The position numbers were made by a program, and so were the translations under genes. The notes beneath the pieces are model-generated. The model did no database searches. It saw only the letters and a program-made list of their open reading frames with translations, and was not told the DNA's origin. This document shows positions 50,007 to 52,451 of a stretch of DNA of 64,000 nucleotides, piece after piece; position 1 is the first letter of the stretch, and every line of letters starts with the position of its first letter. Source of the DNA: Lysobacter terrestris (GTDB lineage Bacteria; Pseudomonadota; Gammaproteobacteria; Xanthomonadales; Xanthomonadaceae); contig NZ_CP060820.1 of NCBI RefSeq assembly GCF_014489475.1, positions 2,124,001 through 2,188,000 of the forward strand, read 5' to 3'.

Positions 50007-51188
50007 TCAGCCGTCGCGCGCGACGACCCGGTTGCGGCCTTCGCGCTTGGCTTCCTGCAGGCGCTGGTCCGCGCGGCGCAGCAGGCGCGAGAGGTCGGCG
50101 CCTTCCTGCGGGTAGGTGGCGATGCCGGCGCTGAGGCTGAGACGGAAGGGCTCGCCGCCGCGCTCGGGTTCGAACGGCCGCTGCAGCAGCTGCCGGCGCA
50201 GGTGCTCGACGCGCTCCCAAGCGCTGCCGATCGGCTTGCGCATCAGCAGGACGAATTCCTGGCCGCCGATGCGCACCAGGTTCTCGCCCGGTTCGGCGCC
50301 CTCGCGCAGGATCGACACCACATGCTTGAGCGCGCGGTCGCCGGCGCGGTGGCCGGCCTCGTCGTTCACGCGCTTGAAGTGGTCGAGGTCGATCAGCGCG
50401 AGCGAAAGGCTGCTGCCGTCGCGCTGCACCGTGTCCATCACGCGCGGCACGCGATGCAGCAGCCACACGCGGTTGGGCAGGCCGGTGAGGCCGTCGGTGC
50501 CGGACATCTCGACCACGCGCTGCATGCGGAAGGTCACCATCACCGTGATCAGGGTGGTGATCGCCAGCAGCACCACGCGCTGCGCCTGGGTGCCGATCGT
50601 GACCGCGCCGTAGTCGGCGGAGATCAGCTGTTCCGGCGAGGTGGCCGAGGCGATCGCGACGAAGGCCAGCGCCGAGTATTCGAACAGGGCCAGGCCCCCC
50701 GCGAACAACGTGACCCGGGCATCGCCGCGCAGCGCGGTGAGCACCAGCGCGAGCAGGTAGCCACACCACACGACCATGCTGTTGAGCCCGGACGGCAGGT
50801 GGTTCATGGCGAGCATGGCCAACACCAGCGTCGCGGCAGTGACGTCGAAGGCGGAGCTGGCGAACGGCAACCAGCGGTGCTGCCGGTGCCGGCGAGCCAG
50901 CGCGAGCCAGACCTGGGCGAAGACGTTGACGAACACCGCGCCGCCCAGGCCGATCATGGTCTCGCGGATGCTGCCGCCGCTGGCCGCGTTGATCAGCGGC
51001 AGCACCAGCAGCAGCAGGGCGATGACCGCGCGCACGCGCGCGGCGATGAGTTCGCCGCCGGAACCGACTTCCCGCATCACCTCGTCGGGTTGGGCGAACA
51101 GCAGGCGCAGCGTGTCGCGGATCTGGCGGACCAAGGCCTGCACTGGTGTCTCCGGGGGCGGGACGGGCGGCGGTAGCATGCACGCCAT
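50007..51188 (-). CDS. membrane GGDEF-domain protein with a GGQEF signature
   Basis: 393 residues from ATG at 51188 (ATG at 51179 possible). The N-terminal half has about six membrane helices (VIALLLLVLPLINAAS, LALFEYSALAFVAIAS, VVLLAITTLITVMVTF). The C-terminal GGDEF domain has TDGLTGLPNRVWLL, ALIDLDHFKRVNDEAGHRAGD, the signature RIGGQEFVLL, and SLSAGIATYPQEG. The signature position that is Asp or Glu in active enzymes is Gln. That residue takes part in metal-dependent catalysis, so cyclase activity may be lost or reduced. An RxxD inhibitory site is not evident. Its upstream region is the three-way-junction inverted repeat. Confidence 0.88.
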   Translation of the reverse strand: MACMLPPPVPPPETPVQALVRQIRDTLRLLFAQPDEVMREVGSGGELIAARVRAVIALLLLVLPLINAASGGSIRETMIGLGGAVFVNVFAQVWLALARRHRQHRWLPFASSAFDVTAATLVLAMLAMNHLPSGLNSMVVWCGYLLALVLTALRGDARVTLFAGGLALFEYSALAFVAIASATSPEQLISADYGAVTIGTQAQRVVLLAITTLITVMVTFRMQRVVEMSGTDGLTGLPNRVWLLHRVPRVMDTVQRDGSSLSLALIDLDHFKRVNDEAGHRAGDRALKHVVSILREGAEPGENLVRIGGQEFVLLMRKPIGSAWERVEHLRRQLLQRPFEPERGGEPFRLSLSAGIATYPQEGADLSRLLRRADQRLQEAKREGRNRVVARDG

Positions 51189-51210
51189 CGCGATCGATTT
51201 CACGGAGTGG

Positions 51211-51475
51211 GGGCCTGCCAATGCGTGGGAAGCAGGTCGCGTTGCACCTCAGGGCCCGTCAGGTGGTGCTGCGTGCCGCAGCGCCTTGCTGACTGCAAGG
51301 TCAAGGTACGCGGCGCCGCATGGCGGGCCCTGAGGTGCAACCCGAAGGGCCGGGGCTGAGGCTGCGCCGGCCAGCGTCATCACTCGGGCGTGTATCGACA
51401 TACACTTCCTCGCTCTTCCTTGCCCGGCGCAGCCTCAGCCCCGGCGCGACCTACTTCCCACGCATTGGCAGGCCC
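51211..51475. repeat. 265-bp nested inverted repeat forming a three-way junction
   Basis: Outer arms 51211-51241 and 51445-51475 are 31 nt each and complementary at 30 positions (key part CCAATGCGTGGGAAG / CTTCCCACGCATTGG). Directly inside, arm A pairs 51242-51258 perfectly with 51324-51340 (17 bp, extendable to 20 with a wobble). After CCCGAAGGG-like linker bases, arm B pairs 51350-51370 perfectly with 51424-51444 (21 bp). Arm A encloses further hairpins GCTGCG-TGC-CGCAGC and CCTTGC-TGACT-GCAAGG; arm B encloses GTGTAT-CGAC-ATACAC. The order is outer, A, A', B, B', outer', so it is not a simple inverted duplication. It fills the gap between two divergent genes, ending 4 bases before the aldo/keto reductase ATG. 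Confidence 0.93.
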
Positions 51476-51479
51476 TCAC

Positions 51480-52451
51480 ATGCAATATCGCCGCCTCGGC
51501 TCTTCCGGCCTGCAGCTCTCGGCCCTGTCCTTCGGTGCCTGGCTTACCTTCGGCGCGCAGGTCGGACGCGGCGTTTCGCGCGACCTGGTGGCCGCGGCGT
51601 GGGACCACGGCATCAACTTCTTCGACAACGCCGAGGGCTACGCCAACGGCATGGCGGAGACCGTGATGGGCGACGTCATCGCCGACCTGCGCTTGCCGCG
51701 CGACGGCTACTGCGTGTCGAGCAAGGTGCTGTTCGGCTCGGCGGCGGATCCGCGGCCCACGCAGAAGGGCCTGTCGCGCAAGCACGTCACCGATGCCTGC
51801 CATGCCGCGCTCAAGCGCCTGCGCGTGGATTACCTCGACCTGTACTACTGCCACCGGCCCGATCCGGACACGCCGGTCGAAGAGACGGTGTGGGCGATGG
51901 ATGCGCTGATCCGGCAGGGCAAGGTGCTGTACTGGGGCACGTCGGAATGGCCGGCGGCGCTGATCCGCGAGGCACATCGGGTCGCGCGCGCGGCTGGCCT
52001 GCACGCGCCGACGATGGAGCAGCCGCAGTACAACCTGCTCAACCGCGAGCGCGTCGAACTGGAATACGCACCGCTGTATGCCGAACTCGGCCTGGGCACG
52101 ACCACCTTCTCGCCGCTCGCTTCGGGCCTGCTCACCGGCAAGTACGCGGAAGCCGGCGCCGGCGAGGCGCGGCTCGATCGCGAAGGCATGGGCTGGCTCA
52201 AGCGCATCGTCGTCGGCGACGGCGAGGCGCACCGCATGGAACGCGCGGCGCGCTTCGCGGCGGCGGCCCGGGAGCTCGGCCACGCGCCGGCGACGCTGGC
52301 GATCGCGTGGTGCCTGCGCAACCCGCATGTCTCCAGCGTGATCCTCGGTGCCAGCCGGGTGGAGCAGCTGCTGCAGAACCTCGCGGCGCTGGAGCTGTAC
52401 CAAGCGCTCGGCGAAGACGCATGGGCGCGGGTGGAGGCGGCCGCGGCCTAG
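51480..52451 (+). CDS. aldo/keto reductase (Kv-beta/YghZ-like)
   Basis: 323 residues. NADPH-dependent reductase of the potassium-channel beta-subunit-like branch. The start MQYRRLGSSGLQLSAL is typical, which supports ATG at 51480 over an upstream in-frame one lying within the inverted repeat. Catalytic tetrad: Asp and Tyr in FFDNAEGYANG, Lys in VSSKV, His in YYCHRPD. NADP contacts are in FSPLASGLLTGKY and VILGASRVEQL. The 3' arm of the large inverted repeat ends 4 bases before the start codon, and the only purine-rich candidate ribosome site, GGCAGG, lies inside that arm. Confidence 0.93.
   Translation: MQYRRLGSSGLQLSALSFGAWLTFGAQVGRGVSRDLVAAAWDHGINFFDNAEGYANGMAETVMGDVIADLRLPRDGYCVSSKVLFGSAADPRPTQKGLSRKHVTDACHAALKRLRVDYLDLYYCHRPDPDTPVEETVWAMDALIRQGKVLYWGTSEWPAALIREAHRVARAAGLHAPTMEQPQYNLLNRERVELEYAPLYAELGLGTTTFSPLASGLLTGKYAEAGAGEARLDREGMGWLKRIVVGDGEAHRMERAARFAAAARELGHAPATLAIAWCLRNPHVSSVILGASRVEQLLQNLAALELYQALGEDAWARVEAAAA

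Follow-up and report, generated by a model that had tools for sequence, protein, structure and literature searches.

A nested inverted repeat between divergent genes of Lysobacter terrestris very probably belongs to a MITE family mobilised in trans by IS5-family transposases

The window, a stretch of 64,000 nucleotides of Lysobacter terrestris DNA, contains a nested inverted repeat lodged between two divergent genes, one for a diguanylate cyclase (GGDEF) and one for an aldo/keto-reductase-like protein (Table 1). The original prediction had described this structure at positions 51211-51475, and had placed its outer arms 4 bases from the ATG of the reductase gene (51480) and 22 bases from that of the GGDEF gene (51188, minus strand). 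Both descriptions proved accurate, as the outer and the two inner inverted repeats were recovered, together with a strong fold. The outer arms (51211-51241 and 51445-51475) are inverted copies of each other with 97% identity over 31 nt, extended by the repeat search to 35 nt at 94% (51207-51241 and 51445-51479); arm A is an inverted repeat of 41 nt with 83% identity (51237-51277 and 51305-51345), and arm B one of 25 nt with 96% identity (51349-51373 and 51421-51445). Within 51211-51475 the fold runs from the outer stem O through arm A, a mini hairpin and arm B to O'. Its minimum free energy as RNA is -219.9 kcal/mol (z -16.84), and its z as DNA is -14.78; in neither case was any of 200 shuffles equally good.

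The mini hairpin at the junction, written CCCGAAGGG, lies between arms A and B and reads CCGNAGG in 64 of 75 aligned copies and CCTNCGG in two. Its GNA loop on the plus strand is equivalent to a UNCG loop on the minus strand. Both GNA and UNCG loops are extra-stable mini loops, in DNA and RNA alike, so that the mini hairpin does not tell which of the nucleic acids folds. A search of window positions 50900-51800 against Rfam gave 14 matches up to E 1, all under their own gathering scores. Phage and plasmid collections held no match to the element, viral contigs gave 0 matches to the arm-B core pattern, and no description of this MITE family was found in the titles and abstracts listed by the literature searches.

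Table 1. Features of the element and of its two neighbours, in window coordinates
Feature	Positions	Strand	Basis
Whole element (probable MITE copy)	51211-51475	+	Fold, repeats, six further copies in the genome
Outer stem O, left side; outermost bases are the terminal inverted repeat	51211-51240	+	Fold, comparison with other copies
Outer stem O, right side; terminal inverted repeat	51446-51475	+	Fold, comparison with other copies
Arm A, long hairpin with several conserved G-U/G-T wobble pairs	51241-51341	+	Fold, pair counts
Junction mini hairpin CCGAAGG	51342-51348	+	Aligned copies
Arm B	51349-51445	+	Fold, pair counts
Arm-B conserved core, pattern CGTCATCRCTCN{22,32}CTCTTCCTTG	51375-51422	+	Pattern match G000:C1:2175375-2175422
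Neighbour gene, diguanylate cyclase (GGDEF), start at 51188	50010-51188	-	NCBIfam models
Neighbour gene, aldo/keto-reductase-like, start at 51480	51480-52451	+	Best NCBIfam models below cut-offs

Further copies in the same genome, for which a BLASTN search had been proposed, do exist: the L. terrestris genome (G000; 3,148,097 bases in one contig) holds six more, with E values from 1.5e-62 to 3.6e-14, two of which (L006 and L007) are shortened. With the window's own genome counted, the element is present in 13 of 60 genomes, and in 77 of 395 genomes of the family, where two hits per genome were scored and copy numbers are consequently lower bounds. The arm-B core pattern was detected in 48 of 397 genomes of the order, own genome included, two genomes having 20 and 35 hits, and the reversed-pattern control gave 0 among the matches listed.

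From 105 core hits, 13 were removed for an outer-arm score below 19, and the resulting set of 92 copies still contains L017 (probably a false hit) plus some copies sharing orthologous sites; 80 of the 92 are at least 240 bp long. The element adjoins many unrelated genes. According to a simple gene caller, 65 copies have co-directional genes on either side (transcribed with the plus strand of the element in 33 cases and against it in 32), 19 have divergent and six have convergent neighbours, and two were not placed. Many copies start within or at the upstream stop codon and end no more than about a dozen bases before the next start, and the first G of the element therefore often completes a TAG stop. 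One copy of the own genome (L002, G000:C1:1326363-1326582) seems to lie inside a coding gene, with an open frame spanning the joined flanks, and L036 and L132 look similar, the copy being seemingly within a gene. Two pairs of copies from different genera (L031 with L073, and L044 with L069) have opposite element orientations at matching flanks, due either to inversion via the outer arms or to independent insertions.

The copies fold alike though their stem sequences differ, and the stems covary. In an alignment of 45 non-redundant copies, from which 10 of the 55 selected had been excluded, the window's structure gives a standard pair in 95.1% of cells, compared with 74.8% with partners shuffled; two-sided pair changes occupy 917 cells, compared with 237 in the shuffled control and 105 to 153 when partners were slid by 1 to 3 columns. 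It should be noted that the reference structure is that of the window copy and favours itself on paired cells, the two-sided changes being the stronger measure, and that the pair counts are drawn from related sequences and are hence not independent. A separate alignment of 75 copies, which omitted L017, L082, L085, L119 and L120, has at least two Watson-Crick types at 81 of 109 pairs and at least three at 46, with each type in at least two copies. Conservation is higher in unpaired columns (mean entropy 0.54) than in paired ones (0.86).

Summed over all 109 pairs, G.T combinations outnumber A.C combinations (659 vs 215), favouring the plus strand. This excess of wobble pairs does not hold throughout the element: after the omission of 10 pairs that are mostly wobble or mostly non-Watson-Crick, the excess is limited to arm A (176 vs 29), is reversed in arm B (44 vs 104) and is absent in the outer stem (36 vs 42). 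Wobble pairs of arm A are retained among covarying neighbours.

Sites with and without the element were found in relatives. At a site in genus g7, the left flank of which was found in 20 of 20 genomes searched, a full copy is present in G314 and G008, a copy with an internal deletion in G083 and the outer stem only in G323, and at least 14 genomes have the site empty. The filled sequence, CTAGTC-TA-element-TA-GCGG, differs from the empty one, CTAGTC-TA-GCGG, by the element and one TA. In a second genus, the flank of another copy was found in 10 of 52 genomes, two of these 10 carrying the element. Short outer-stem remnants with TA flanks kept (L148, G181:C17:367632-367683, and L183 in G323) are probably internal-deletion products of the element.

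Among the 92 copies, TA flanks both sides in 33 and does not in 59; 79 have an A immediately before the element and 74 a T immediately after it. For 100 contig copies the flanks were sorted by end: the same TNA triplet stands on both sides of 15 of 43 GAG-ended and five of seven GAA-ended copies, and TA on both sides of 15 of 26 GGG-ended copies, the remaining 24 copies having other ends. Because the middle letters of the triplets are identical, the duplication at GAG and GAA ends is a real one of 3 bp. With GGG ends, the flanks would look the same after a 2-bp duplication as after the insertion of an element whose tips are A...T.

Relatives carry complete IS5-family insertion sequences whose ends are like those of the element. 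Two of these (L347 and L348) measure 805 bp, have perfect 16-bp ends GGGCCTGTTAACACTA and lie between CTA and TAG, and another (L344) has GGGCCTGTCATCAATTG at one end and a near-perfect partner at the other. In the genome of Fulvimonas sp. R45, an insertion sequence with DUF4096 (L317) has the ends GAGCCTGTTCAAAGTCTC, and several MITEs of the same assembly end with GAGCCTGTTCAAGATCTC or near it and are flanked by TCA/TCA or TGA/TGA. L317 (G436:C46) additionally shows extra tandem copies of its left and right end regions. Allowing matches at 14 or more of 16 bases, 20 of the 92 copies match the end of L347, six that of L344 and three that of L317, compared with 0 of 92 for five control IS5 ends; among 53 contig copies the corresponding numbers are 14, 0 and nine. 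Of 30 IS5 loci from the window's family that were scanned, only three had matching ends, some loci being cut by contig ends. The loci L347, L348, L344 and L317 contain no full arm-B core, and single half-motif matches occur only in L347 and L348.

L347 scores above the cut-off for the IS5 model NF033580 (NCBIfam) in two frames and also matches PF13340 and PF01609, thus combining IS5 transposase domains with a length of approximately 0.8 kb and two overlapping frames. The part of PMC3281130 drawn on here describes IS427-group elements of Paracoccus as 832-865 bp long, with mostly 2-bp duplications and in some cases two overlapping frames, and the part of PMC2516522 drawn on here gives a 3-bp insertion site as a feature of the IS1031 group. 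The flanks CTA and TAG of L347 and L348, together with the filled and empty site, fit TA; the GGG ends are ambiguous, and GAG-ended copies show 3 bp. By its size, its two reading frames and a putative 2-bp duplication, the partner insertion sequence would be IS427-like. PF13340 is present in 114 of 395 genomes of the family; a search for it found no hit in the window's genome or in G001, G010 and G181, and current mobility in these four genomes is accordingly not supported. Another IS5-type element (L321, in G314) has the end TGTATCGACATTCA, one base off the arm-B tip TGTATCGACATACA, which is found in many copies, the window's included, other tips being different; this likeness may be due to chance.

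The class of MITEs is characterised, in the part of PMC3733652 used here, by a length of 70-300 bp, no capacity for a transposase, terminal inverted repeats, gene-adjacent positions and strong secondary structure. At 265 bp the element lies within this range and is too short for a transposase, and its family has terminal inverted repeats and many dispersed copies. Target duplications and empty sites are found for the family, the window copy itself no longer having TA flanks, and an autonomous partner with the same ends is found in relatives, none being detected by PF13340 in the window's genome. Judged by its ends, copies, empty sites and duplications, the element is best placed among the MITEs of IS5-type insertion sequences. 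It shares terminal sequences with the partners L347, L348, L344 and L317, resembling the IS427 group of the IS5 family (an 805-bp partner with two frames and flanks that would fit a TA duplication); unlike IS5 insertion sequences themselves, it has no transposase in its 265 bp, and its interior is, as far as seen, unrelated to the IS interior.

The original prediction had held that many copies flanked by target duplications would mark the element as an ordinary MITE. Copies and duplications are largely as foreseen there; the branched, covarying interior is not ordinary. ERIC, Correia/NEMIS, RUP and Nezha are likewise short, non-coding and gene-adjacent, with terminal inverted repeats and strong secondary structure, but a four-part branched fold is absent from their descriptions in the source portions used, the comparison being one of descriptions only. 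Correia and RUP are tied to IS630 in the part of PMC2817692 consulted, whereas the partner here is of the IS5 type. IS630 as the engine, as for Correia or RUP, was rejected: the IS630 DDE domain (PF13358) was found in 0 of six genomes searched, and the ends belong to IS5 elements.

It is extremely unlikely that the element is a REP/BIME or TIRtron palindromic repeat moved by an IS200/IS605-type tyrosine transposase (RAYT or TIRYT), in spite of the self-complementary repeats tied to such transposases that are known, from the parts of PMC3733652 and PMC2817692 used, in Stenotrophomonas, a member of the same bacterial family. REPs are given as 20-40 bp long, and IS200/IS605 transposition as proceeding without terminal inverted repeats or larger target duplications, in the consulted part of PMC2817692. 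Here we find outer arms of approximately 30 bp, TA/TNA duplications and IS5 partners with the same ends, and neither the length nor the duplication is that of a REP. The likeness to REP/BIME and TIRtron repeats thus lies in self-complementarity within one bacterial family (PMC3733652, in the part used), and the differences in transposase class, length, ends and target duplication, as far as the published descriptions go.

The window copy is flanked by GG and TC, its TA flanks having gone, and 10 of its outermost 16 bases agree with the L347 end. At the orthologous place, G001 has the element with arm A reduced to a short hairpin, and G002, of the same genus, has no element. As the genome has no PF13340 hit, the TA flanks are lost and the element is absent in G002, the window copy is a resident relic and not a conserved regulator. 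A cis-regulatory RNA or cruciform serving the divergent promoter, and controlling the reductase and/or the GGDEF gene, would agree with the distances of 4 and 22 bases to the two start codons, with a fold very stable both as RNA and as DNA, and with the G001 copy at the orthologous place, in which the arm-B stem differs from that of the window by seven two-sided changes and one one-sided change (two and four, respectively, in the outer stem). We nevertheless regard such a role as very improbable, since G002 lacks the element, arm A is reduced in G001, the same element occurs beside many unrelated genes and there is no strand preference between co-directional genes (33 vs 32), the last of which tells against one RNA strand having a function for the host. 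Among the options offered by the original prediction, the non-autonomous mobile element is consequently upheld by the copies, the empty site and the IS ends, and the bidirectional cis-regulatory RNA is disfavoured by G002, by the cut arm A of G001 and by the even strand counts.

The strong covariation across the family, the better conservation of unpaired columns and the frequent location of copies between the stop and start codons of neighbours could also be accounted for by a structured RNA or DNA element that spread as a repeat and is held in place by host selection, for example as a processing site between genes. This is very unlikely in view of three orthologous pairs at fixed sites (L037/L117, L093/L112 and L115/L118), in which 29 stem pairs changed on one side (12 keeping a standard pair in both copies) and only five on both, all from Watson-Crick to Watson-Crick; moreover, sites are often empty in relatives and strand preference is again absent. 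Resident copies mostly decay, and the family-wide fold is therefore probably kept via mobility. The covariation across the family is more likely to have been kept in this way, or to have been made by palindrome correction, than to reflect a service to the host, and correction alone would not readily account for the wobble pairs that persist in arm A next to covarying pairs.

We therefore consider the element in the window to be, very probably, a MITE copy resident in this genome, whose family is mobilised in trans by IS5-family transposases. The transposase, acting in trans on MITE copies with an interior (arms A and B and the mini hairpin) that is too short for a transposase gene, would cut at the shared ends and insert the element at TA/TNA targets. 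These would often coincide with a stop codon in the short gap between closely spaced genes, and the first base of the element may then complete a TAG stop. Well-folded copies, or copies corrected during copying, would probably be the parents of new copies, by which the pairing would be maintained. The window copy would now be passive between its two divergent genes. A striking promoter structure is in this manner explained as a passenger, with its likely engine named; what deserves study is its unusual branched fold, which a large number of related copies have retained. With its partner enzymes, its occupied and vacant sites and its dozens of covarying folds, the family allows a test of whether the interior of a bacterial MITE matters for its movement.

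Beyond the order, exact hits of the core pattern were found, among the matches listed, in planctomycete MAGs (Fuerstiella, Planctomyces, Planctomycetaceae and Kuenenia) and in one Longimicrobiales and one Actinobacteria MAG. The phylum of the planctomycete copies rests on MAG labels and on many copies per assembly, and contigs may be misbinned; a Pfam search with seven ORFs from planctomycete and Longimicrobiales contigs found no phylum-specific domain. The complete planctomycete copies L197, L228, L238, L241 and L288 are predicted to fold into an outer stem with two arms; for the planctomycete copy L211 the energy model gives arm B a different shape. For the Actinobacteria-MAG copies L208 and L210 an outer stem with one arm was obtained, and the predicted minimum-energy fold of the Longimicrobiales copies L245 and L302 is not branched. 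Hits in a Hyphomonas MAG (L303) and a Saprospiraceae MAG (L307) were rejected as family members, as the fold is absent and they look like chance hits. The ends also vary by group, with GGG/GAG in Lysobacterales and GAACCCCTAACAAAACC in planctomycetes. Two assemblies contain the planctomycete ends GAACCCCTRACAAAACC 30 and 89 times and the reversed control 0 times, and the end positions listed for these two assemblies include no pair of ends at IS distance.

The order O-A-A'-B-B'-O' had been claimed to be impossible by one inverted duplication. This claim does not hold, because a hairpin duplicated together with its tail can give that order. In six planctomycete copies arm B is similar to arm A read as its reverse complement (z 2.8 to 6.7); the eight Lysobacterales copies tested show no such similarity (z -0.9 to 1.2). 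Arm A thus being an inverted relative of arm B in planctomycete copies, the sequences suggest that the element arose when a hairpin and its tail were duplicated in inverted orientation.

The branched, covarying interior, with its core kept under different ends, sets the family apart from the published MITE descriptions compared, within the portions of those sources that were used. Were the interior irrelevant to movement, it would be difficult to account for one interior core recurring under different ends in distant phyla. One tentative idea is that the branched interior is a module of its own and not filler, namely a folded strand (single-stranded DNA in transposition, or RNA) with a recognised arm-B core, selected for mobility and carried on differing IS5-type ends across phyla. 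We hold this to be rather unlikely at present, its probability being lowered by the Actinobacteria and Longimicrobiales copies without the full branched fold.

In two genomes of one genus, a copy (L112 in G243 and L093 in G299) splits one gene, which we take to be acetyltransferase-like, at the identical place. The two elements are 263 and 264 bp long, and the halves of the gene are consequently in different relative frames. Between the two genomes both halves remain under purifying selection (N half, pS 0.300 and pN 0.000; C half, pS 0.347 and pN 0.023). A still bolder extension of the module idea would be that RNA or protein processes bypass, excise or tolerate the copies that lie within genes.
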